The position numbers and the translations under genes were made by a program. Positions 19,231 through 64,000 of a DNA stretch of 64,000 nt are shown in pieces. Numbering within the stretch: position 1 is the first letter of the stretch; every line of letters starts with the position of its first letter. Origin of the DNA: Lachnospiraceae bacterium (GTDB taxonomy: Bacteria > Bacillota > Clostridia > Lachnospirales > Lachnospiraceae); assembly GCA_017465095.1 (NCBI GenBank), contig JAFTWX010000020.1, forward strand, positions 1-64,000. Reading direction: 5' to 3'. The notes beneath the pieces were generated by a model, which saw only the letters and a list, made by a program, of their open reading frames with translations, had not been told where the DNA came from and did not search any database.

Positions 19231-19292
19231 GGAGCTTTCCTCCGAAGTAAATTCCCCGCCAATGCGGGCATTATCCCTTGTAATATAAAAAA

Positions 19293-19639
19293 GTAAGCAG
19301 GACGATAAGCCGGGTTATGTCGTTGAATGATCATCTATCTAGGCCTGTCGTTACCGACAGGCTCGAGCGACCCACCTGAAAGCACAGCGGGCAACTGTAT
19401 TGCTTTCTACTCGGTCTTGCTTCGGATGGGGTTTACATGTGCCCCCGCTGTTACCATCGGGGCGGTAGTCTCTTACACTGCCTTTCCACCCTTACCGGCT
19501 GTGCCGGCGGTATATTTCTGTTGCACTGGCCTTGGAGTCACCTCCACCGGACGTTATCCGGCATCCTGCCCTGTGAAGCCCGGACTTTCCTCGTCTGCTG
19601 CCTTTCGGCATTGCAGCCGCGATCATTTGTCCTACTTAC
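19293..19639 (-). ncRNA. rnpB: RNase P RNA
   Basis: The minus strand carries GAGGAAAGTCCGGGCTTC near its 5' end and AACCCGGCTTATCGTCC near its 3' end, the conserved ends of bacterial RNase P RNA. Helix P1 forms between GTAAGTAGGAC (5') and GTCCTGCTTAC (3'). A T-run follows the 3' end. The length is about 347 nt and the layout suggests class A. It processes the 5' ends of pre-tRNAs with RnpA. It starts 26 bases after the nucleoside kinase stop. Confidence 0.93.
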
Positions 19640-26991: not shown

Positions 26992-27075
26992 TGCAGGAGA
27001 TGGGACTTGAACCCACACGATATTGCTACCACAGGCACCTGAAGCCTGCGCGTCTGCCAATTCCGCCACTCCTGC
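26992..27075 (-). tRNA. tRNA-Leu, anticodon CAG
   Basis: The minus strand folds as a class II tRNA with acceptor GCAGGAG/CTCCTGC. The anticodon stem is CAGGC/GCCTG with loop TTCAGGT, so the anticodon is CAG and reads CUG. The long variable arm and the GGTTCAAGTCC T-arm are present. CCA is not encoded. Confidence 0.95.
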
Positions 27076-30184: not shown

Positions 30185-30269
30185 GCGGAAGTGTCGGAAC
30201 TGGCAGACGAGCAAGACTAAGGATCTTGTGATCAATGCGATCGTGTGGGTTCAAGTCCCATCTTCCGCA
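30185..30269 (+). tRNA. tRNA-Leu, anticodon AAG
   Basis: The acceptor stem is GCGGAAG/CTTCCGC with discriminator A. The anticodon stem CAAGA/TCTTG encloses loop CTAAGGA, giving anticodon AAG for CUU/CUC codons after A34-to-inosine editing. A long variable arm is present. CCA is not encoded. Its 3' end is duplicated at 31339-31358, which marks it as an integration target. Confidence 0.92.
30250..30269 (+). other. Attachment-site repeat, left copy
   Basis: TTCAAGTCCCATCTTCCGCA is the 3' end of tRNA-Leu(AAG). It recurs exactly at 31339-31358 in the same orientation. A tRNA 3' end copied as a direct repeat is the usual footprint of tyrosine-recombinase integration. Confidence 0.8.
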
Positions 30270-30282
30270 CTAACCTTTTAAG

Positions 30283-41814: not shown

Positions 41815-42909
41815 TTATTTTAATTTCTTCACATATTTACCGGCGGCTTTTCCGGCTTCGTATCCAACGATATTCAATGCTTTCTGATTGAGATGCACGG
41901 AATCGTAATAATACTTTCCGTAGGATTTCACAAAACTTGAAGCCTTCTTGGACACAAGCACAAAATTCTTATTTTTCGCACACAATTTTTTCTGTGCTTT
42001 CATAATGGTGCTGTTGCGCCCCGGATGTTTCGCATCATGGGCGATACGGATGACAAACACCTTCTCAACACCGGTCTTTTTCATCTTTTTGTAAATCTTT
42101 TTCATCCGGGACATATATGTCGATGCCGAAAGATTTTTCTCCCCGTCGGACTCTCCCTGATACCACACCATGTAAATGTGGCGGATTTTTATATTGTTCT
42201 TCTTCAAATACTTCTTCGCCTTTTTGAGTCGGCTCTGAGTCTCCTTCACCAACCCTCTTTTCAGCCAGGTATTGGTCGAAGATCCGCCCCACGCAGCCGT
42301 CACACCCACAACCGGCGTCTTTGTCTGCTTGTAATAATTGATACAAAAAGCGGAGACAAGCGTTCCCTTCGTGCTGTACTGAAAATTGGTTTCCAGCCCG
42401 TTGTTTCGGTTGGTTCCTTCCCCGAACGGCTCCTTCATCAGGATAAGCTGTTTCGTTTTTGTGGTCGTATCAAATTCATAGGCTGTTCCGTAGTCCGGAC
42501 GCGGTGCCGTCGACGCATTTCCGCCGGAGCCGCACATATTGCTCTGACCGGCAAAAACAATCAAATCCACCTCTCCGTTGACCTTGACGGTGTATACCGT
42601 CTTCTCATTCCTACAGGTCTGTGTCACCGTACAGGTGCCCGGCTTTCCGCCGATCATCTGACCGCTGTTGGACACTGCCACCACATCTCTGTCACTGCTC
42701 TCGTAAGTAGCGTCACCCGGGATGATCGTACTCACCATACGCGTCTCGCCCGGAAGCATCTGTATCGTTTCCTTTACATATGTCGTCGTATAGGTCACAT
42801 CCGTCGGATCGGTCTCTGTTGCCTGCGCCGACACATCAAATGCAGCAGTCGCAGCAAACACTGCACATACAACAAACAACAACTGTATATATTTTCTTAT
42901 TGTTTTCAT
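41815..42909 (-). CDS. Secreted SGNH esterase (SASA-like) with Ig-like domain
   Basis: The 364-residue precursor starts with a Sec signal peptide (KTIRKYIQLLFVVCAVFAA, likely cut after SAQA). A bacterial Ig-like domain (about 50-125) follows, then a sialate O-acetylesterase-like SGNH domain with IVFAGQSNMCG, WGGSS, VWYQGESDG and the Asp/His pair in YYYDSVHLNQKA. It probably removes acyl groups from glycans outside the cell. The ATG at 42909 has AAAGGGG upstream. Confidence 0.85.
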   Translation of the reverse strand: MKTIRKYIQLLFVVCAVFAATAAFDVSAQATETDPTDVTYTTTYVKETIQMLPGETRMVSTIIPGDATYESSDRDVVAVSNSGQMIGGKPGTCTVTQTCRNEKTVYTVKVNGEVDLIVFAGQSNMCGSGGNASTAPRPDYGTAYEFDTTTKTKQLILMKEPFGEGTNRNNGLETNFQYSTKGTLVSAFCINYYKQTKTPVVGVTAAWGGSSTNTWLKRGLVKETQSRLKKAKKYLKKNNIKIRHIYMVWYQGESDGEKNLSASTYMSRMKKIYKKMKKTGVEKVFVIRIAHDAKHPGRNSTIMKAQKKLCAKNKNFVLVSKKASSFVKSYGKYYYDSVHLNQKALNIVGYEAGKAAGKYVKKLK

Positions 42910-42981
42910 AAAAAGCCCCTTTCTGTCATGCTCTCCATTATAATGCATAAAATTAAAAAAGAAAATAAAAAAAGGCAAAAA

Positions 42982-51516: not shown

Positions 51517-53013
51517 TTATTTTTTTGTATAATTCACATAAATGATTTCTTCTTCCGACTTGCCGTACTTATCTACGGATATGGTTTTGACTTCGTATTT
51601 GCCATCCCGGTTCGGCGTCATTTTCATTGTCGTCTGCACATTTTTCGCATCAGATATATAGTTGACCCACACCTCATCCTGACGATAATCGATTTTCATA
51701 TACTCGTAATAAGTTGTCGTCGTATCAAACTTTTCATTTGTGATATATTTTTCCAACTGGAAGTCATAATATTTGATTTCCATCTGTTCCGAATTCTCTT
51801 CATCGGAAAGTGTCCGGTCCACATCCACATAATTGTTGGTGTACAAATCACGCTCTGTTTTGGACATTCCGGCCACCATAACAAACTGCTTCGCCGTGTC
51901 CGCCTCCGAGAACCTCCGGTAAAAGCTGTTGATTAAGACACCTTTTCCGACCTCTGTCAGCGCCGGTCCCAAAACAAATATTGCTACGACGAGAACAACC
52001 GCAACCGCCATAATATATTTGTTTCTGTTCTTCTTCTGATGCTTATACCACATCGCTTCTTTTGAGAACGTCTTAGCCTCCGATATACTGGAATTGAGCT
52101 GTTCATAATCCACATCGTCCGGGCAGATGGCTTCTTTGAACTGCTGCATAGTCTCATACCGTTCAAAATCATAGACCGATACCGCCTTCATAATGGCCTC
52201 ACTCTGGAATTTCATGACTCTTGTCTGCATCTGAAGCGGATCCTGTGTCTCCTTCTCCTGATTGACTCTGTCATAATAAACCGGAAGTGGTTCTCCCGTT
52301 GCGTAACGGTAAAAAATAGCCGCCACTTCGTATATGTCGGCCGACGGACCTCTTTTTGCCTCCGGAACATACAACTCCACCGGTGAATATGCATCCCGGC
52401 GAATTTTAAGATCACCCAGCTGCGGCGCCGCCACATCCTCCATCGGATTCATAATTCCCACAAGAACAGCTTTCCCGTCACCGGTCAGACGGATGTTGTC
52501 CGGATAGACCGTTCCGTGAAATACTCCGTGACTGTGAAGCCGTATCAATGTTTCCATCACCGGCAAAAGATACTGCAATAAATCTTCCGGCAAAAACTTG
52601 GCACTGTGTCGCTTCCACAATTTCTGCTCCAGTGTCTGACCTTCCACATACTCTTCAATCGTGTACACGGTCTCTCTCTCCTCGAGATACGTCAGCACAT
52701 TGGCTATTCCTTCCACCGGATATAAACCGATCATCTTTTTCGCTCTGCGGACCATATGCTCCTTCATGCTGTGAAACAGTTCTTCATCCGACAGTCTTTT
52801 ACACTCCACCTTGTAATCATGGTCCATGTCTCTGTTCAATATCGACTGCGGGAAAAGTTCCCGGATCACAATCACTTTTTTGCGGAATGTATCATACCCT
52901 TTGTAAGTGACAGTCAAACCATTGTCTCCGAGTACTTCATCTACCCGGTAGCGCCGGTCCGCCAAAGTCATTCCGGCCTGCAAAAGCTGTTTTGGAATGC
53001 TGTTTTTCTTCAT
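51517..53013 (-). CDS. Membrane-bound protein pseudokinase
   Basis: The 498-residue protein has a Ser/Thr-kinase-like domain (about 20-290), then a membrane helix near 332-352 (YIMAVAVVLVVAIFVLGPAL), then an outer domain of about 145 residues with no known motif. Key kinase residues are changed. The VAIK Lys aligns with Arg in VIVIRELFP, HRDxxxxN reads HGTVYPDN, and DFG reads VGI. It is probably non-catalytic and may sense or scaffold. Gene is monocistronic. Confidence 0.8.
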   Translation of the reverse strand: MKKNSIPKQLLQAGMTLADRRYRVDEVLGDNGLTVTYKGYDTFRKKVIVIRELFPQSILNRDMDHDYKVECKRLSDEELFHSMKEHMVRRAKKMIGLYPVEGIANVLTYLEERETVYTIEEYVEGQTLEQKLWKRHSAKFLPEDLLQYLLPVMETLIRLHSHGVFHGTVYPDNIRLTGDGKAVLVGIMNPMEDVAAPQLGDLKIRRDAYSPVELYVPEAKRGPSADIYEVAAIFYRYATGEPLPVYYDRVNQEKETQDPLQMQTRVMKFQSEAIMKAVSVYDFERYETMQQFKEAICPDDVDYEQLNSSISEAKTFSKEAMWYKHQKKNRNKYIMAVAVVLVVAIFVLGPALTEVGKGVLINSFYRRFSEADTAKQFVMVAGMSKTERDLYTNNYVDVDRTLSDEENSEQMEIKYYDFQLEKYITNEKFDTTTTYYEYMKIDYRQDEVWVNYISDAKNVQTTMKMTPNRDGKYEVKTISVDKYGKSEEEIIYVNYTKK

Positions 53014-54580: not shown

Positions 54581-54973
54581 ATGACAACAGATTACTCAAG
54601 TATGATGGATCCTGCTGCAGCCGGTGCGATGGCCGGTGCAATGATGATTTATTACATCATTCTCCTTGCTGTCAGCATTCTCAGCATCATCGGTATGTGG
54701 AAGATGTTTGCAAAAGCCGGAAAACCGGGTTGGGCAGCTATCGTTCCGTTCTACAACATGTATTGCCTTTTCGAAATCGGATGGGGTAATGGCTGGATGT
54801 TCCTTCTCATGTTTGTACCATGTGTAGGCATTGTATTCCAGATCATCCTTTTCTTCAAGCTTGCATCCGCATTCGGACGCGGCGTTGGATTTGGTTTCGG
54901 ACTTCTGTTCCTGACACCGATTTTCTACATGATTCTCGGTTTTGGTGAAGCAGACTATATCGGACCACAGTAA
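54581..54973 (+). CDS. DUF5684 family small membrane protein
   Basis: The 130-residue protein has about three to four hydrophobic helices and the family blocks MWKMFAKAGKPGWAAIVPFYN (here within 40-60) and FFKLASAFGRGVGFG. It often occurs alone or next to signal peptidases in Firmicutes and Actinobacteria; its role is unknown. AGGAGG lies 8 bases before the ATG. A terminator follows. Confidence 0.8.
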   Translation: MTTDYSSMMDPAAAGAMAGAMMIYYIILLAVSILSIIGMWKMFAKAGKPGWAAIVPFYNMYCLFEIGWGNGWMFLLMFVPCVGIVFQIILFFKLASAFGRGVGFGFGLLFLTPIFYMILGFGEADYIGPQ

Positions 54974-55269: not shown

Positions 55270-56031
55270 TTAATAAACTGCTTCAATCTTTCCGATGAAT
55301 TCACGGATTCTCTCGTTGTCGGAATGGAATACTTCATCCGGCGTTCCCTCCTGAACGACCACACCGTTTTCCATGAAAATAATCCGATCGGACAATTCTC
55401 TTGCAAACTGCATCTCATGGGTTACGATAATCATCGTCATCTTCTGCGCAGCAAGCTCTTTGATAACCTTAAGCACCTCTCCCGTCAATTCCGGATCCAA
55501 TGCACTGGTCGGCTCATCGAAAAACAAAATTTTCGGTTGCAACGCCAGAGCTCTCGCAATGGAAACACGCTGCTGCTGTCCGCCTGAAAGCTGATACGGA
55601 TAAGCTTTTCCTTTTTCCGCAAGACCGAGCTGATCCAAAAGCTTCAATGCCCGTTCCTTTGCCTCTTCCTTCGGAACCTTGCACACCGTCACCGGTGCAT
55701 CCATAATATTTTTCAGTACATTGTAATGCGGAAACAGGTTAAAGTTCTGAAATACAAGTCCGAAATAGCTGCGTATTTTTTTGAGCACATTTTTACTCAT
55801 ATATACGCTCTTTCCGTTGACACTTTTTGCCGCATGCTCTCCCATATAAATCAATTCGCCGTCATCCATCTGCTCCAGCAGCGTGGCGCAACGCAAAATC
55901 GTCGATTTACCGGAACCGGAAGGTCCTATAATGGAAACAACCTCACCTTCCTTCACAGAAAGGGAAAAATCTCTGATAACTTCCAAATCCCCGAAGGATT
56001 TTTTCATATGATTGATTTCAAGTAAATTCAT
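55270..56031 (-). CDS. Polar amino-acid ABC importer, ATPase
   Basis: The 253-residue protein has Walker A GPSGSGKST, Q-loop LVFQNFNLFPHY, signature LSGGQQQRVSIARAL and Walker B ILFFDEPTSALDPE, all canonical for GlnQ/HisP type ATPases. Last of three genes, after the permease by 10 bases. The amino acid carried is not determined. Confidence 0.95.
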   Translation of the reverse strand: MNLLEINHMKKSFGDLEVIRDFSLSVKEGEVVSIIGPSGSGKSTILRCATLLEQMDDGELIYMGEHAAKSVNGKSVYMSKNVLKKIRSYFGLVFQNFNLFPHYNVLKNIMDAPVTVCKVPKEEAKERALKLLDQLGLAEKGKAYPYQLSGGQQQRVSIARALALQPKILFFDEPTSALDPELTGEVLKVIKELAAQKMTMIIVTHEMQFARELSDRIIFMENGVVVQEGTPDEVFHSDNERIREFIGKIEAVY

Positions 56032-56041
56032 GTTCCGCCCC

Positions 56042-56701
56042 CTATCTGTAATATCCCAACTTCTTCTCGATCAGTTCCATAACAAACGCCACAAGAAGAT
56101 TGAATATGTAATAGAACAGACCTGCTACCATCAACGGAATTACCGTCGTCTGCGCAGCAGCAATCTGTTTTGCCAGCGTGAACATCTCCGCCACCGTAAG
56201 AACAAACGCAAGGGATGTGTCTTTTACAAGGGTGATAACCTCATTGGTCACCGGCGGCAAAATACGTTTGATTACCTGCGGAAGTATAATCCGGAAAAAA
56301 GTCTGCGCCTTTGAAAATCCGAGCACCTGCGCTGCCTCATGCTGTCCCACCGGAATCGCCTGGATTCCCGCGCGATAAATCTCAGCAAAATAAGCTGCAT
56401 AATTGAGCACAAATCCCAGAATTACAGCCACCATACGGTAGCCGGCCCCAAACCGTACTCCGAACACATAATACGGCGCAAAGTACACCACGATAAGCTG
56501 CAACATCAGCGGAGTACCTCGCATGATGGATATATATATTTTGGAAATGGTTCTGATCAGTCCGTTTTTGGCCATTCTGCCAAAGGCAATAATCAGTCCC
56601 AGCGGCAATGAAAACAACAGTGTCAGGAAAAAAATCTGTCCTGTCACAATCATTCCTTCTGCCAGCTGTTTCAGCATTGTCATAATATCCATAAAAGACA
56701 C
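56042..56701 (-). CDS. Polar amino-acid ABC importer, permease
   Basis: The 219-residue membrane protein has about five helices and the EAA loop EAAQVLGFSKAQTFFRIILP, as in HisM/GlnP permeases. It follows the binding-protein gene by 12 bases. Confidence 0.94.
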   Translation of the reverse strand: MSFMDIMTMLKQLAEGMIVTGQIFFLTLLFSLPLGLIIAFGRMAKNGLIRTISKIYISIMRGTPLMLQLIVVYFAPYYVFGVRFGAGYRMVAVILGFVLNYAAYFAEIYRAGIQAIPVGQHEAAQVLGFSKAQTFFRIILPQVIKRILPPVTNEVITLVKDTSLAFVLTVAEMFTLAKQIAAAQTTVIPLMVAGLFYYIFNLLVAFVMELIEKKLGYYR

Positions 56702-56713
56702 CTTCCGAGTTAA

Positions 56714-57532
56714 TTATTCTGCATCTGCTGTGAGACAAACTACGTCGCTCAGTCCCCACTCTTCTGCAATTTTGGCAAATGTGCCGTCCTCTACCATTTC
56801 ATATAATGTACTCTGTACCTGATCTCTCAGTGCTTCGTTTCCGAGAAGGAAACCTACACCGTACTGTTCTGTCGATAAGTAATCATCCAAAATAACAAAT
56901 TTTCCTGCTTCTCTGGATTCCATCTGGTAGTTTGCAACACCGATGTCCATTGCAACTGCGTCTACCGCACCTGCCTCAAGGTCCATAAATGCTGTGTTGT
57001 ACTCTGCAAACTGGTTAAGAGCAGCAAAGCTTTCTGTCAGAGCTGTATTCTCTTCGCTGTTTAAAGCTGCAAGCGCAGAAGAATCTGCCTGAACAGCAAC
57101 TGTTTTTCCTGCAAGATCCGCCTGTGATGCGATACCTGCATCTGCTGCCACTACAAATACCTGACTGTTGTCTACATACGGTACAGACCATGTGTAAGCA
57201 TCTTCACGTCCGTTGATTGTAAAACCGTTCCAAATACAGTCAATGGCGCCGGAAGACAATTCCATATCCTTTGTATCCCAGTTGATCGGCTGTTTTACAA
57301 GCTCCCAACCGTTTCTGTTACAAACTTCCTGTGCAAGGGAAAGGTCAAATCCGACATATTCGCCGTTGTCATCCATGTATCCGTACGGCGGGAATTCTGC
57401 GTCAAAACCTACGGTAAATGTTGTTCTTTCGCCGCCTTCGGATGTAGCTGCAGCATCCTCGGAAGCTCCGCATCCTGTCAATGTAAATGCTGCCATAGTT
57501 ACACATAATAATAAAGCCAATAATTTTTTCAT
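56714..57532 (-). CDS. Polar amino-acid ABC importer, binding lipoprotein
   Basis: The 272-residue precursor has a lipobox FTLTGC (Cys21) and a mature SBP_bac_3 fold (TVGFDAEFPPYGYMDDNGEY, VGFDLSLAQEV). It captures an amino acid outside the membrane. It is first in the operon, with its own promoter at 57582-57610 and GAGGAGG before the ATG. Confidence 0.94.
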   Translation of the reverse strand: MKKLLALLLCVTMAAFTLTGCGASEDAAATSEGGERTTFTVGFDAEFPPYGYMDDNGEYVGFDLSLAQEVCNRNGWELVKQPINWDTKDMELSSGAIDCIWNGFTINGREDAYTWSVPYVDNSQVFVVAADAGIASQADLAGKTVAVQADSSALAALNSEENTALTESFAALNQFAEYNTAFMDLEAGAVDAVAMDIGVANYQMESREAGKFVILDDYLSTEQYGVGFLLGNEALRDQVQSTLYEMVEDGTFAKIAEEWGLSDVVCLTADAE

Positions 57533-57581: not shown

Positions 57582-57610
57582 ATGTTATCATGTCATTGTT
57601 TTTGTGTCAA
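57582..57610 (-). promoter_or_regulatory. Promoter of the amino-acid ABC operon
   Basis: On the minus strand TTGACA (57605-57610) and TAACAT (57582-57587) are spaced by 17 bases. It lies in the short gap after the unknown operon, so the importer is transcribed separately. Confidence 0.8.
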
Positions 57611-57619
57611 TCGGTCTTT

Positions 57620-58822
57620 TCACGAGGTCGGATACTTGTCCTCGTAGTCGGAAACCAGTTTTAATATTTCTTTTGCATACTGCGGATATTCGCCTACCAG
57701 CTCCTTCACCTGCTGCTGGGCATTTTCCGCATTGCCCGTGTTAAACTCCATCTGCTTGCGAAGCTTCTGTCTTCTGGCAATCAGGGCATGGCGTACCTCC
57801 ACCATCTCCTTCGGATCCAGAATCGCCTCCACCTGATGCAGCCAGATCACCGGATCATACAAGTGATATTTTCGCAGAAGCGTAACCAATTGTTCCTGCG
57901 TAAAACTGAGATCCTTGATTGTTTCCTTAATCCGCGCACGCTCCTCCCGCTCCGCAAGATAGCGTTCCCAAATGGATATCAATTCTTTGGCCGATGTGAC
58001 GCCGTATTTCATATAAAGATAATCCACCAGGTTTGTGTTATTGACGTAGCGGATTTTTACTTTATTTTGTAACAAAATCACTTTGTTGAGACTGTGGGAA
58101 GAACGCTTTCTCTCACTCACTGCCTCCACATATTTCATATACATGGCCGTAAGCGCAATCGCAGCCACAGAAGCCGTCAGAAAATAACCGATGGTCGCAT
58201 TCATCTCAAGTACAAACTGCATAAACAGAAGCATTCCCATACAGGCAAACAACGCAACGGTACAGATCAGCGCCATACCACGGAGATTTTCCATGGCTGC
58301 AGCCGCCTCCTGCTTTCGGAACAGGCAGGCCTGCTTCTCATTTTCAAGGCGCATCATATCGCTTCGGATTGCCTGCTGATACTCCTCCGCCTCCGTCAGT
58401 TTCCGAATTCCTTCCTCCGCATTTTCTTCCAATTTTTCCATGCGGATAAAATCTTCGTCTTTCAGACGCTGTTTCTTCTCTTCGTACACATGCTTATCTT
58501 TCTCCAAAAGACTGATTGCCTTGGCATATTCCATGAGACTGTTTCTGTCGTCCCCCTGAATGTATTCCAAATCTTCCATATCTTTCAGATACCGGTTGAC
58601 CGTATTGTACTCTTCCTTGCAGGATTCAATCTGCGCAGACGCATCAGCAATCTGCTCCAGCAGACTGAGCACATAACGCTCTCTGTCCCCTGCGCTCTTC
58701 ATATCGATCTGATCGATGGAAAGTACATAATCCTCTTCCTCCATCCGAAGTTCCTCATCAATCACCTCATCGATATTTCTGTATTTATTTGGTCTCTTAA
58801 ACAGTTTTTTCCAAAAACTCAT
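57620..58822 (-). CDS. Coiled-coil membrane protein of unknown operon
   Basis: The 400-residue protein has a long coiled-coil (about 50-180, Glu/Lys/Arg-rich), two adjacent membrane helices (about 185-240, LICTVALFACMGMLLFMQFV and GYFLTASVAAIALTAMYM), then a second helical region to the end. No family recognised. The ATG at 58822 has GGAG 5 bases upstream. It is the last of four genes transcribed together with the DUF5717 and DUF5716 proteins, and is probably its membrane anchor. Confidence 0.75.
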   Translation of the reverse strand: MSFWKKLFKRPNKYRNIDEVIDEELRMEEEDYVLSIDQIDMKSAGDRERYVLSLLEQIADASAQIESCKEEYNTVNRYLKDMEDLEYIQGDDRNSLMEYAKAISLLEKDKHVYEEKKQRLKDEDFIRMEKLEENAEEGIRKLTEAEEYQQAIRSDMMRLENEKQACLFRKQEAAAAMENLRGMALICTVALFACMGMLLFMQFVLEMNATIGYFLTASVAAIALTAMYMKYVEAVSERKRSSHSLNKVILLQNKVKIRYVNNTNLVDYLYMKYGVTSAKELISIWERYLAEREERARIKETIKDLSFTQEQLVTLLRKYHLYDPVIWLHQVEAILDPKEMVEVRHALIARRQKLRKQMEFNTGNAENAQQQVKELVGEYPQYAKEILKLVSDYEDKYPTS

Positions 58823-58824
58823 AG

Positions 58825-59598
58825 TCACTCCAATACCATGCGGCAGAATTCATTTTTAATCTGCGTAGTATCTGCCGGATTTTTATCCCATTGTTGTTGC
58901 ACTTGTGCTTCCGCTGCTTCAAATGCCTGCTCTGCCTCGACAAACAAATGCCCCATATCTTCCTTCCCGGAAACCCATTCCATATACGCAGCCCGCGGCA
59001 TCGTAAATCGTTTACACAAAATATATCTTTTCCGCACCTGTTCATCCTCCGCAAACCGGCAACTCTTTTCGAAGCAGTAAGCCGCCGTTTCATAGTGGAA
59101 CATCTTGGCCGCCACGCACCCGAGCTTATCGTAAATCCGGGCAATCAAATCCACATCCTGCATAACCTCCTCCAATTGAAGAAGATTCCGATATGCCTTC
59201 TGCGCTTTGTAATACTCCTTTTCCCTATGGTAGGTATCCGCCTGGCGCATCAACCTCTCCACGACAGGAAGCACTTCATTTTCCCGGATTTGTGCCACAA
59301 TCTGATTGCGTATCCCCGCATCCGGATAATCCGCATACGATAGAATCATATCACAAAATTCATGCAAAGGACACCCGTTGTCAAGCATCTGTCTCAGCTT
59401 ATCTGCCAATTCCGGTAGCTCCAGCTCCGACTGCAGGAAATCCGCAATCCCTTCCTCCGGGAACGCATCGTCCAGCAAATCGGTCATATCACAAATACAA
59501 TAACACAGTTCTTCCAATGTATAAACAGATATCCTGCCCGCCAAAATACGATATGGTTTTTTTGCTTTCTTCCCTACACAGGCGTAAAGTCTACTCAT
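58825..59598 (-). CDS. TPR-like helical protein of unknown operon
   Basis: The 257-residue protein starts with LYACVGKKAKKPYRI and is mainly helical. Two or three TPR-like units are visible in 118-210 (ADTYHREKEYYKAQKAYRNL, KMFHYETAAYCFEKSCRFA). No catalytic motif is seen. It overlaps the actin-like gene upstream by 4 bases and ends 2 bases before the coiled-coil gene start, so translation is coupled. Likely a scaffold. Confidence 0.75.
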   Translation of the reverse strand: MSRLYACVGKKAKKPYRILAGRISVYTLEELCYCICDMTDLLDDAFPEEGIADFLQSELELPELADKLRQMLDNGCPLHEFCDMILSYADYPDAGIRNQIVAQIRENEVLPVVERLMRQADTYHREKEYYKAQKAYRNLLQLEEVMQDVDLIARIYDKLGCVAAKMFHYETAAYCFEKSCRFAEDEQVRKRYILCKRFTMPRAAYMEWVSGKEDMGHLFVEAEQAFEAAEAQVQQQWDKNPADTTQIKNEFCRMVLE

Positions 59599-60890
59599 TT
59601 GTTTCCTCCGAGCACTACATCATAAGTCATCCCAAGGGGAATTTTCTCATACAAATCCCCAAAACCTTCATCCGATACACAGACAAACATGCGGTCCTGC
59701 GACTGCATCTGTGCTGTGAGCGTCATGCGGTAACTGCGGAATTTCCGCTCCGGCAAAGGCTCCAGATGCAGTGTTTCCGTGTATGCACCGCCTCCGCTGA
59801 TCGGTGTAATCAAAAGATCTATCTCTTTTGCATCTTCCATTAAAAATGTTATCTCCGCCTTGGCATCGTACCAGTTGGTTCCCGCATCCAAAAGCGGACA
59901 ATATTCTTCCTCTCCCCGGTTGCTCACGGAAATGCCCACGTTGTACCGCAGCATATCCTTTCCGAGAAAAAGAAACTTTTCGGAAACCTCGGACGACCAA
60001 ATCTTTTCCATGGCACTGTAGCAGGCACCTTTTCCGAACAGATTGTTTCCCGCATAAACCTTCCGGTTCCGGCATAAAATCTTCAAACTCTCCTTGTACC
60101 AGTCTCCCTGAAATCCGTCTCCGATCAGATACATACCAGTCACAATTCTGCCTTTTGTGAACTCTTCCACATATGCTTTCAGTCGCAGATCAAGTTCTGC
60201 CAGACATCTGTCATGCTCCATGATTGACGGGTAGTGTTTCTTTTTTACAAGTTCCGACACATATTGCTTGTCCACCGTTGTGACCACCGGTCTTGTCTTA
60301 TGATTCATCTCAACCCGGTAACTGACGAGCGTCTCCCCCGTCAAATCGAGCACACCCGTCTCATATCCGCGCAGACGCTCCGGCTGCTGCACAAGAAATG
60401 CATACAGACTGTCTTCATGTTTCTGAAAAGAAATCCGCTCCTTTGGAACAAGTAGTCCTTCGGTCAGAGCATCCGCCTGCTCCCGCATGGCATCCGCATA
60501 CAATTCCGAAGTGAACATCAGTGCCCGGATATGCACCGGCTCTTCGTATATTTCCTCCAAACGTCCCAACGCCCATGTAAGCGTTCTGCCCAGGAAAAGA
60601 TTGCACAGCTGCGCAACTGCGTACTCCTGCTTCTCAATAGTCACAGTCTCCTTGTCCGCAAAAAGTTTCCACAAGTGCTCAACCAGTGTCCCTTCCCCTG
60701 CGACCCCTTTTTTGACCGCTTCTTTTCCGCAATACCACTGATTAACTCCCCGACGTTTACAGAGTGCCGTCTCGATATTGCCCTCCTCCTTAAACGCAGG
60801 GAACTCCAATGTCTGTGGTTCTTCCCCCGGTCCCGCATAGGAGATTTGCGCATAATATTCATTTATATCATATCCGATTACAACATCCAC
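59595..60890 (-). CDS. DUF5716 actin/Hsp70-like ATPase-fold protein
   Basis: The 431-residue protein begins VVIGYDINEYYAQISYAG, which aligns with the phosphate-1 loop of Hsp70/actin folds. TGVLDLTGETLVSYRV corresponds to phosphate-2, and YLIGDGFQGDWYKESLKIL with a later GKGACYSAM to the adenosine region. The motifs are degenerate, so ATP hydrolysis is uncertain. I associate it with DUF5716, found in Lachnospiraceae next to DUF5717. Second in the visible operon, 3 bases after it. Confidence 0.7.
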   Translation of the reverse strand: MDVVIGYDINEYYAQISYAGPGEEPQTLEFPAFKEEGNIETALCKRRGVNQWYCGKEAVKKGVAGEGTLVEHLWKLFADKETVTIEKQEYAVAQLCNLFLGRTLTWALGRLEEIYEEPVHIRALMFTSELYADAMREQADALTEGLLVPKERISFQKHEDSLYAFLVQQPERLRGYETGVLDLTGETLVSYRVEMNHKTRPVVTTVDKQYVSELVKKKHYPSIMEHDRCLAELDLRLKAYVEEFTKGRIVTGMYLIGDGFQGDWYKESLKILCRNRKVYAGNNLFGKGACYSAMEKIWSSEVSEKFLFLGKDMLRYNVGISVSNRGEEEYCPLLDAGTNWYDAKAEITFLMEDAKEIDLLITPISGGGAYTETLHLEPLPERKFRSYRMTLTAQMQSQDRMFVCVSDEGFGDLYEKIPLGMTYDVVLGGNK

Positions 60891-60893
60891 TTT

Positions 60894-63800
60894 TTATTCT
60901 CCAAACAATAACTCCGCACGAAGAGATTCTTTTTTGTATCTGGTTATAAGCTCCTGTTTTGTTCTGTCATCCCCAAGTGTCTCGCACATGACAATATCAT
61001 TGAGCAGGCCGAACCGGCTCTCACTCTCCTCCCCCGTCATGTCACTTTTTTCCAAAAATCCGCTCTCCGTGAGTTTCCGTTCACGGCCGCTGTTCTCCAT
61101 AAAATAGTACTGCAGACGCTGACCGAAGAACAACACAAAATTGTGACAGAAATAGCCGGCACAAATCTCATCCAGCTTTTGCTGCCGATACTGTTCCCCC
61201 TGTCCCTCCTGCACATAATGCAGTGTTACAACCGTCCCCGGCGCTGTACGGTATTCCAGATAAGACAACTCCGCATACGGTCGCAGCCACGGTATAAACT
61301 CCGTAAAAGGTTTCAGGAACGGTACATACTGTTTTTCGGTCACAAGCTCGTTGACAAGCAAAGTAATCAATTCCTTTTGCCGTTCATCATAACTGTCGGT
61401 TTCGGAAGACATATAGTGCAAATAGGCCACCTTACTTACATCGTCCATCTCGCACCCGCTGCAGAGCAGACCTTCCAGCGCACCGAATATCTCCGGCGAA
61501 GCAGGCTGCTGTTTTACAAAATACCGGTACGTCATGGCATTGATATACCCCTTGACCACACTGTCGCGTTTTCTGTGGGACACATAATAATCAAACACAT
61601 CCTCAATTCCTGCCAGATAGGCGTGCGAAAACAGATATGCCTGCAAAATGCGCTCCGCTATACCGGATGCATCCACATCAAAACTGGCCGCTGCCTTCCA
61701 CACCTCGCGCATCTGCTTCAGCGATCCCTCAAAATACCGACACAAATATACGAGCATATCCTGCGTATACTTGCCGAGGCAGAACGTATAATAAATAATC
61801 GCCATCAATTTCCCGTCAAACAACGGATCATTTTCCATCGTTCTTCCGATTAAGCGCGCAAGCACCTTTGCCGACACATTTTCAAATCCGTAGTTATATA
61901 AAATATCATATGCCTGCTGATCCTGCTCCAAATAAACAAGATAGCGGACCGCTTCCGCCCGCTCGGCAGATGTCGCATGTTCCGGATTGAAATTTTGTAA
62001 AATCGTCTTCATCTCATCGTATTTTTCATGGTCAAAATAAAGACGAAGCAACCGGTTTCCCAGCTCGCTGCGATAAGAATCCTCCATATCCGGATGGGAG
62101 GCCAGTTTCTCATAAAGAGGCCAAAGCGCCGGCGAAACCTGCTCCGGATTTCCTCCGATACTCGCCTGATAAAGTGAGTATCCGATGTCCTCCGAATCAT
62201 GCTCCTCCAGATAAACCGCCGGCCTTTCCGCCGACATCAACTTTATATCCGTCCAATCCGCCTCATCGCTGTAACGGTTTCCCGCTTCATCCTCCAGCAC
62301 CACTATATATTCGGAAGTATAGCAATCCACATATGCCCGGTTTTTCTCCACCGGATATACGTTTTCTTTTTTCATTTTATCCTGCACAACAATGACACTG
62401 ACAATGTCTTCTCTTTGTACTTTAATCAGATGACGGAATGCAATGTTTTGCAGTTTGTCCTTCGGAAGGGCATCCCCCTCCTCGGACAGAAAATAGCGGT
62501 ACAACACCGCCAGATTTTCGCTGACAAGTCCTTTTTCCATCTCTGCCACTGCGAACTGCTTTATATTCTCTCTGTACTGGCGAAACAGCTCCGGTATCTC
62601 TTCTCTGTGGCGGACAAGGAGCGCATACAAATACGCTTTTCTTCTCTCATCCAGGTCGCACTGATACGCAAAATACATGAGCACTGCCCGCGGCGGCAAA
62701 CGATCCTCCCGCGTATCCGCCGACAACATATAATACTCATACAAAGACGTAATCCGCATCTGCTTATGTACGGCAAGCTCATACCAACCGAAGTATTCCC
62801 TGCCGCACATACCGCTTCGCACCATAAGAGTGCAAAATGCCTGAAGAAGGGAATCCTCCGGATATATTCCGTAACTTTCTCCGAGGAAACGATACAGCAT
62901 AGGCGTCATTTCCTTTTTCCGAAGAACCAAATCGGTAACTCGCTCTGCCAGCTGCGGCGTGTAAATACCGTAACGTATTCCGAACCGCAGAACACTGATT
63001 TCAAAAGCATCCAGCTTAGCCAGATAGGCCGGGCTCTGGGCATACACCCGGAACACTTCCAAATATAAAATCGGACTTCTGCTTCCCGCCAGATACTGAT
63101 TTTCATAAAACAGAAGCTGTTTTTCCGGACTTACATTCTGCCGTATCATTTTCATATACAGACAGGCAATAAACACATTCGTTTGGTTAGCATCAAGCAA
63201 CTTTTCCAGTTGTCCCACAACACTGCGTTGAAATTTTTCATCCGTTTCCAGCAAACTGCGCAAATACAAATAGTAGCCGTACTGAGCCGGTTCCATGTCA
63301 CTTTGTTTATGGGTTTTTTCCACATGGGAAAGCACCCATTTCGCCTCGCCGGCTCTTTCCTGTTCCAGCATGACATGCATTTGAAACAGTCTGGCCCACA
63401 GATTCCGACCGTATCCTGCATTGATTTTTTCCAGCGCTTTCTCCGCATCCTTCAGGTGAGAAACCCGTTGCTTCGGCTGCGTCTCGCATGCGATATAGTG
63501 ATGCATCAACTGCACGAACAACATTTTCTCTTCCTGTCGCTGCAGTTGCTTGCGGGAAACTTCCGACGGTCTGTTGATGATGACCGGAACCTCCAGACTT
63601 CCCCCGTCGTAGTCAAAAAAGATACTGCCCGTATTGCATTCTCCGAAAAGCAGATTTTCATTTACATCAAACAGAACTTTGCACTCATTGTGTTCAAAAT
63701 CCTTACGGGTCAACACGGTCTTTTGCGGAATCAAAAACTCCGCTCCCGTCCGGACTTTCACACAGTCGTAGCCCCATCCGCCCCTCACAAGGGTAACCGA

Positions 63801-64000
63801 CTCCTGCTGCATACCGGAGATATCTTTCAGCAAAAGTCCCTCTTCCGCTACGCTGTAAGTATTTTTTTGTTTTTTGTGGATGGCAACAAGGAACTCGTCC
63901 ACATTGTGTTCGTTACCCGCATGCTTTGACAATGCACGGTAAAGGTCATAATACCGGTGATCATGGCCATAAAACAGCAGGCAAAAATATTCCGAATAAA
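60894..64000 (-). CDS. DUF5717 giant helical-repeat protein (cut at window edge)
   Basis: At least 1035 residues are visible and the frame stays open to the right edge, so the N-terminus is missing. A TTG at 63932 is in frame but the coding pattern (YSEYFCLLFYGHDHRYYDLY) clearly continues upstream. An early beta-rich part (about 40-170) is followed by a long series of helical hairpins like TPR/HEAT (for example AEKALEKINAGYGRNLWARLF and later units). No catalytic motif. I associate it with DUF5717. It heads the visible part of the operon. Confidence 0.75.
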   Translation of the reverse strand, partial: YSEYFCLLFYGHDHRYYDLYRALSKHAGNEHNVDEFLVAIHKKQKNTYSVAEEGLLLKDISGMQQESVTLVRGGWGYDCVKVRTGAEFLIPQKTVLTRKDFEHNECKVLFDVNENLLFGECNTGSIFFDYDGGSLEVPVIINRPSEVSRKQLQRQEEKMLFVQLMHHYIACETQPKQRVSHLKDAEKALEKINAGYGRNLWARLFQMHVMLEQERAGEAKWVLSHVEKTHKQSDMEPAQYGYYLYLRSLLETDEKFQRSVVGQLEKLLDANQTNVFIACLYMKMIRQNVSPEKQLLFYENQYLAGSRSPILYLEVFRVYAQSPAYLAKLDAFEISVLRFGIRYGIYTPQLAERVTDLVLRKKEMTPMLYRFLGESYGIYPEDSLLQAFCTLMVRSGMCGREYFGWYELAVHKQMRITSLYEYYMLSADTREDRLPPRAVLMYFAYQCDLDERRKAYLYALLVRHREEIPELFRQYRENIKQFAVAEMEKGLVSENLAVLYRYFLSEEGDALPKDKLQNIAFRHLIKVQREDIVSVIVVQDKMKKENVYPVEKNRAYVDCYTSEYIVVLEDEAGNRYSDEADWTDIKLMSAERPAVYLEEHDSEDIGYSLYQASIGGNPEQVSPALWPLYEKLASHPDMEDSYRSELGNRLLRLYFDHEKYDEMKTILQNFNPEHATSAERAEAVRYLVYLEQDQQAYDILYNYGFENVSAKVLARLIGRTMENDPLFDGKLMAIIYYTFCLGKYTQDMLVYLCRYFEGSLKQMREVWKAAASFDVDASGIAERILQAYLFSHAYLAGIEDVFDYYVSHRKRDSVVKGYINAMTYRYFVKQQPASPEIFGALEGLLCSGCEMDDVSKVAYLHYMSSETDSYDERQKELITLLVNELVTEKQYVPFLKPFTEFIPWLRPYAELSYLEYRTAPGTVVTLHYVQEGQGEQYRQQKLDEICAGYFCHNFVLFFGQRLQYYFMENSGRERKLTESGFLEKSDMTGEESESRFGLLNDIVMCETLGDDRTKQELITRYKKESLRAELLFGE

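Follow-up and report, generated by a model that had tools for sequence, protein, structure and literature searches.

What is the task of an operon that is kept as a single-copy locus in 97% of the sampled genera of Lachnospiraceae, one of the commonest families of gut bacteria, and that has no known function? This question is raised by the right end of the window, i.e., the whole stretch of 64,000 nucleotides analysed here (positions 1 to 64,000 of contig JAFTWX010000020.1, Lachnospiraceae bacterium, assembly GCA_017465095.1), where four genes encode a DUF5717 protein, a DUF5716 protein, a TPR protein and a coiled-coil membrane protein. From its sequence and its structural model, DUF5716 appears to be an Hsp70 with a destroyed ATPase site, and the operon is read here, with about even confidence, as encoding the core, itself non-catalytic, of a chaperone or assembly complex of the Hsp70 type. 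The genes and their parts are as follows; NBD and SBD stand for the nucleotide-binding and substrate-binding domains of Hsp70, and ORF for open reading frame.

60894..64000, continuing to C106:64454, minus strand: DUF5717 gene (Pfam DUF5717_N and DUF5717; contig continuation).
59595..60890, minus strand: DUF5716 gene, 431 amino acids, GTG start (Pfam DUF5716_C, AlphaFold model, Foldseek, hhalign).
59976..60890, minus strand: NBD-like part of DUF5716, about residues 1-305 (model secondary structure, alignment A1, motif table; boundary approximate).
59598..59975, minus strand: SBD-beta-like part of DUF5716, about residues 306-431 (model; Foldseek alignments spanning the NBD and SBD of DnaK).
58825..59598, minus strand: TPR protein gene, 257 amino acids (weak TPR_12 match; orthologs in the family loci).
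57620-58828 (GTG start, 402 amino acids) or 57620-58822 (ATG start, 400 amino acids), minus strand: coiled-coil membrane protein gene (ORF; ortholog profile).
58142..58276, minus strand: two predicted transmembrane segments of the coiled-coil protein, residues 185-203 and 211-229 (hydropathy; a hairpin between two charged helical arms).

The four-gene, same-strand operon was confirmed. The original prediction, made from the letters of this DNA alone, gave gaps of 3, -4 and 2 bases, and the ORFs gave the same values for the DUF5717/DUF5716, DUF5716/TPR and TPR/coiled-coil junctions, the third being -4 if the GTG start is used. The ATG at 58822 is preferred as the coiled-coil start because the relatives begin there. 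Since the gene order is conserved over many genera, the arrangement is not due to chance. DUF5717 has 1186 amino acids and starts with a TTG at C106:64454, about 450 bases past the window edge. It is the first gene of the operon, because about 450 non-coding bases separate it from the nearest same-strand gene upstream, which has PG_binding_1 and SpoIID matches. At L002:9908-11170, on the minus strand, the neighbour upstream of the operon has a PG_binding_1 domain and a SpoIID-like match. The family names given in the original prediction were verified by Pfam, with E-values of 7e-81 for DUF5716_C (PF18980), and of 6e-180 for DUF5717_N and 2e-78 for DUF5717 (PF18983 and PF18984), and these families carry no function. 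In the literature search, we found no paper on DUF5717 and none describing this operon, and DUF5716 turned up only in an unrelated context, in keeping with the earlier remark that none of the four genes has a known function.

The AlphaFold model of DUF5716 (pLDDT 89.3, pTM 0.84) has the two elements that define the Hsp70 fold, an actin-like NBD followed by an SBD-beta. When this model was compared with known structures using Foldseek, DnaK structures ranked first (E 8e-19, full-length), the RAC core containing Ssz1 was matched with E 2e-16, and the best 50 of 1306 matches were all Hsp70-family or Hsp70-containing entries. None of the filament-forming actins (MreB, ParM, FtsA) was found among these best 50. 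A viral structure library returned the HSP70 homologues of closteroviruses and giant viruses, which fits Hsp70 only. The actin/Hsp70 fold proposed earlier for DUF5716 is thus supported by both AlphaFold and Foldseek, on its Hsp70 side. When DUF5716 was searched directly against the sequences of the PDB, no relative was found, and a direct Pfam scan of the window protein gave no Hsp70 (PF00012) match; the kinship becomes visible through the fold comparison and through a chain of profiles that passes by other families of the order. By hhalign, the DUF5716 proteins of Lachnospiraceae (alignment A3) matched those of the other families with E 5e-45, and matched Hsp70-C, an ATPase-intact protein encoded beside DUF5716 in those families, with E 4.5e-16. 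In one such locus, L053, PF00012 matched Hsp70-C with E 7e-63 and DUF5716 itself with E 1e-17. The NBD-like part of the Lachnospiraceae proteins holds a region that is shorter than in the DUF5716 of other families, and a D-x-G-x-G motif near the C-terminus is conserved, with D407, G409 and G411 invariant. The SBD-alpha lid is absent, because the protein terminates after the beta domain at 431 amino acids.

The catalytic positions, in DnaK numbering, were read from an alignment of 90 DUF5716 proteins (69 from Lachnospiraceae and 21 from other families) with the genome's own DnaK. The catalytic Lys70 was kept in none of the 90 proteins (0/69 in Lachnospiraceae), and the catalytic Glu171 in none of the 69 and in 4 of the 21. 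The phosphate-2 Thr199 was found in three of the 69, including the window protein, and in none of the 21, while the phosphate-1 Thr11 was found in one and four proteins, respectively. No protein among the 90 retained three of these four positions, and the adenosine motif GGS was mostly changed to G-x-G. The profiles and the model place DUF5716 within the actin-like ATPase superfamily, in its Hsp70 branch, and the ATPase site looks destroyed. With the Lys lost in 90/90 proteins and the Glu and Thr in nearly all, it is unlikely that the ATPase-fold switch of the original prediction hydrolyses ATP.

A larger form of the operon was found in about ten other families of the order. We read 21 such loci. 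ORF calling relied on a simple longest-ORF rule, and in some loci it missed an Hsp70-C gene that was detected by the PF18980 search. In these families, that search also matched a second, adjacent Hsp70-like ORF. The gene order is constant: DUF5717 (frequently present as two ORFs), Hsp70-A, a GrpE fusion, DUF5716, Hsp70-C, Hsp70-VWA, TPR and sometimes the coiled coil. If Hsp70-A, the GrpE fusion, Hsp70-C and Hsp70-VWA are taken out, exactly the colinear order of Lachnospiraceae is left. The expectation that more members might lie beyond the window edge was wrong for this genome. It was correct, though in a different place, for the other families, whose operon has four more genes inside it. The GrpE and VWA domains were matched with E 3e-13 and 2e-10, respectively. 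ATP motifs are intact in Hsp70-A, -C and -VWA, in which the catalytic residues lost from DUF5716 are invariant, and the mean column identity was 75-78% for these three Hsp70s, 42% for DUF5716 and 31% for the GrpE fusion. Hsp70-VWA (L053:6495-8573 and similar; alignment A7) has a VWA domain at the place of the lid, with 78% mean column identity across families. In the GrpE fusion (L053:11870-13804 and similar; alignment A8), the GrpE domain is C-terminal to a long, poorly conserved N-terminal region. Of the 45 genomes outside Lachnospiraceae that have DUF5716, 44 also have this fusion; among genomes lacking DUF5716, it was present in just two. Outside the order, the search gave just GrpE-domain matches in ORFs of ordinary grpE size and one weak partial match. 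Some of the larger clusters (L048:2973-10265 and L049:1204-7733) have several unrelated ORFs inserted among the Hsp70 genes, some of them near-repeated copies and some with lipoprotein-like starts.

In 60 Lachnospiraceae genomes, the Hsp70-VWA query found only DnaK-like matches with 28-43% identity, and its VWA part gave only one weak separate match. In the same number of genomes, the profile of the GrpE fusion matched only through its last ~80 residues, in grpE ORFs of ordinary size beside DnaK matches. Lachnospiraceae also own housekeeping dnaK and grpE genes separate from the operon. In the DUF5716 tree with Hsp70-C as the outgroup, the Lachnospiraceae proteins formed one clade (100/98), next to L045 from a larger-operon family and nested in the larger-operon group, a position that is less than certain owing to long branches. 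The leuS gene is adjacent to or near the cluster in both the small and the large forms, which suggests loss in place rather than transfer. From these comparisons, the Lachnospiraceae operon is probably a reduced descendant of the larger machine.

DUF5717 was present, as one copy, in 97 of the 100 Lachnospiraceae genera sampled, and the three genomes without it also lacked DUF5716. In a phylum-wide sample, only members of Lachnospiraceae scored above the cut-off. We read 72 Lachnospiraceae loci as DNA for gene content and order. The DUF5717, DUF5716 and TPR genes were adjacent in 70 of them, so the co-occurrence on which the original prediction had been made to depend was observed; the coiled-coil gene was present in 37. 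Of the remaining two, one genome carries DUF5716 on a different contig, and in the other no TPR gene could be detected. In a scan of the collection with a narrow DUF5716 alignment, the closest named loci were Lachnospiraceae records, including Kineothrix alysoides and Parablautia intestinalis. In two loci, L124 and L151, DUF5716 and the TPR protein are fused in single ORFs of 709 and 723 amino acids with no methionine at the joint.

The AlphaFold model of DUF5717, taken from the Kineothrix ortholog (L167; pLDDT 86, pTM 0.57), contains from the N- to the C-terminus an Ig-like beta-sandwich, a second beta-sandwich, an alpha-solenoid, a beta insert, another alpha-solenoid, a beta domain and helices, and this agrees with the large scaffold expected beforehand. 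Its fold search against the PDB gave axonemal central-pair proteins and the TPR scaffolds Ski3, Ctr9 and Naa15; no function was inferred from these matches, because they are generic and their TM-scores are low. The window TPR protein matched TPR_12 with E 3e-5, under the curated cut-off. Its orthologs were found in 70 of the 72 Lachnospiraceae loci, and other families have a larger ortholog with strong TPR matches. The coiled-coil gene was also found in 5 of the 21 loci of other families. The predicted membrane coiled coil was supported by its two predicted transmembrane segments, which are shared by 32 of 37 orthologs. Most DUF5717, DUF5716 and TPR orthologs lack a hydrophobic segment, and for this reason the complex would be cytoplasmic, and membrane-tethered in some lineages.

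We propose the following arrangement. DUF5716, with its decayed ATPase site, its missing lid and its retained substrate-binding-like beta domain, would, like yeast Ssz1, most likely provide a static platform for binding, and would be in direct contact with the TPR protein. The large Ig-like and alpha-solenoid scaffold of DUF5717 would carry this pair, and the coiled-coil protein would anchor the whole complex to the cell membrane from the inside in about half of the Lachnospiraceae loci. The three ATP-intact Hsp70s and the GrpE fusion of the ancestral machine would have been lost, and ATP work, if any, would be borrowed from the housekeeping DnaK. Formation of a physical complex is hinted at by the DUF5716-TPR fusions and by the joint absence of DUF5717 and DUF5716 in three genomes, and binding of clients, partners or DnaK is suggested by analogy with Ssz1. 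A more specific form of this proposal, which we put forward only tentatively, is a family-wide pseudo-chaperone, in which a dead Hsp70 on a giant solenoid would serve as a dedicated co-chaperone platform and bring the housekeeping DnaK to a particular site (in half of the lineages, the membrane) or to a specific client, the pseudo-enzyme having been kept while its own three ATPases and exchange factor were lost. Such a loss would offer a naturally occurring test of pseudo-chaperone action without ATP. The decayed Hsp70 core, taken together with the intact-looking Hsp70s and the GrpE fusion of related families, gives the locus, which seems to be the remaining non-catalytic frame of a machine dedicated to protein folding, a testable biochemical identity. 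Roles in sporulation and motility were considered and rejected. Among 100 genomes, 68 have Spo0A_C, and of the 32 others 31 keep DUF5717; flagellin was found in 55 of 100. Since the locus tracks neither Spo0A nor flagellin, it belongs to neither gene set.

Several points weigh against the chaperone-core proposal. No J-domain protein (DnaJ) was found by Pfam in the operon or in its larger form, and the standard Hsp70 cycle needs one. Client binding, DnaK recruitment and complex formation are all inferred, and DUF5716 may bind nucleotide without hydrolysing it. The L124 and L151 fusion proteins are relatives of each other (29% identity), so the fusions may represent a single event, and both come from draft genomes. 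The absence of Hsp70-A and -C from Lachnospiraceae is drawn from an Hsp70-wide query, which gave only matches of 28-43% identity; no search with their own profiles was made. Finally, the mean identity of the operon proteins between genomes was 27-30%, compared with 73% for LeuS from identical genome pairs, and such fast evolution also fits a role in conflict or surface interaction.

A cell-envelope or cell-division scaffold is a possible though rather doubtful alternative. Here DUF5717, DUF5716 and the TPR protein would build a structural complex, cytoplasmic and located at the membrane, that lacks chaperone activity, and the Hsp70 fold would be only a module for protein-protein interaction. 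The near-universal presence in Lachnospiraceae irrespective of sporulation and motility, the membrane coiled coil in half of the loci, the dead ATPase site of DUF5716 and the scaffold-like model of DUF5717 would all suit such a complex. However, no division or envelope gene was consistently linked to the locus, and the three ATPase-intact Hsp70s and the GrpE fusion retained in the larger form make chaperone work the likely original task. A biological-conflict (defence) system is improbable. Kaur et al. (2020; PMC7159879) described neighbourhoods with similar HSP70, GrpE and TPR parts in Firmicutes, where they belong to GTPase-centred systems, and the fast evolution mentioned above would agree with such a role, but no P-loop (GTPase-like) gene lies inside the cluster, the only PADLOC match for the window proteins was weak and BrxB-like (TPR protein, E 8e-4), and a locus that is single-copy in 97 of 100 genera, shares the leuS neighbour and has no plasmid copies (no plasmid match for the locus was found) is unlike a defence island. 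Least of all do we expect a working ATPase switch of actin or Hsp70 type that powers a cytoskeletal or trans-envelope machine, as first imagined from the fold of DUF5716 and the coiled-coil membrane protein, because the catalytic and phosphate-binding residues of DUF5716 are lost, DUF5717, DUF5716 and the TPR protein have no consistent transmembrane segment, the coiled coil is missing from 35 of the 72 loci, and the best folds are Hsp70s with a substrate-binding beta domain, not filament-forming actins.

Downstream of the operon, an amino-acid ABC transporter set (ATPase, permease and binding protein) lies at 55270-57532 on the minus strand, preceded by one further feature.

57582..57610, minus strand: promoter-like site TTGACA-17-TAACAT with TG ahead of the second hexamer, just past the coiled-coil gene and before the amino-acid ABC transporter genes.

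This site suggests that the transporter genes are a unit separate from the operon; promoter-like matches overall were not commoner than in shuffles. A similar transporter set apparently follows the operon in several other genera (e.g., L039 and L042). A Ser/Thr kinase-like membrane protein is encoded at 51517-53013 on the minus strand (Pkinase 5e-9; NCBIfam Stk1-type PASTA kinase below the cut-off; one apparent transmembrane segment), and it was rejected as an operon partner, as no homolog was found near the operon in the other loci read. The window also contains genes for a small DUF5684 membrane protein (54581-54973, plus strand) and a predicted sialate O-acetylesterase-type protein (41815-42978, minus strand; SASA, 9e-20) with a weak Big_2 Ig-like domain, the class A RNase P RNA (19290-19638, minus strand), and two tRNA-Leu genes at 26992-27075 (minus strand) and 30185-30270 (plus strand), with the anticodons CAG and AAG.

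Among the known systems, the GTPase-centric HSP70/GrpE theme of GAP1-N2 was the closest published resemblance found. Its Firmicutes conflict neighbourhoods contain HSP70, GrpE, a second HSP70 without the peptide-binding domain and an FNIII-TPR protein (PMC7159879). The likeness in HSP70 and GrpE genes applies only to the larger cluster of other families, these genes being absent from the window operon, and the Lachnospirales locus differs in being vertical, single-copy and near-universal. No P-loop gene was found among the extras in the larger clusters, and a P-loop motif was found in at most one ortholog per family; no search with a dedicated GAP1 model was made. With the DnaK/GrpE system, DUF5716 and the larger operon's three additional Hsp70s share descent from the Hsp70 family, and that operon also includes a GrpE domain. 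In contrast to that system, the lid of DUF5716 is missing, one member appears dead, GrpE is fused to a long N-terminal region, one Hsp70 is fused to VWA, and there is no DnaJ. The atypical Hsp70 Ssz1 of the eukaryotic RAC, which has little or no ATP hydrolysis (PMC8476630), consists of an Hsp70 NBD and an SBD-beta without a lid and stays in a stable partner complex; DUF5716, as judged from its sequence, also has no lid, and its own catalytic residues are lost. The partner of Ssz1 is the J-protein Zuo1, and Ssz1 binds ATP, whereas DUF5716 is a bacterial protein of separate origin, for which the TPR protein and a giant solenoid, rather than a J-protein, would be the partners.

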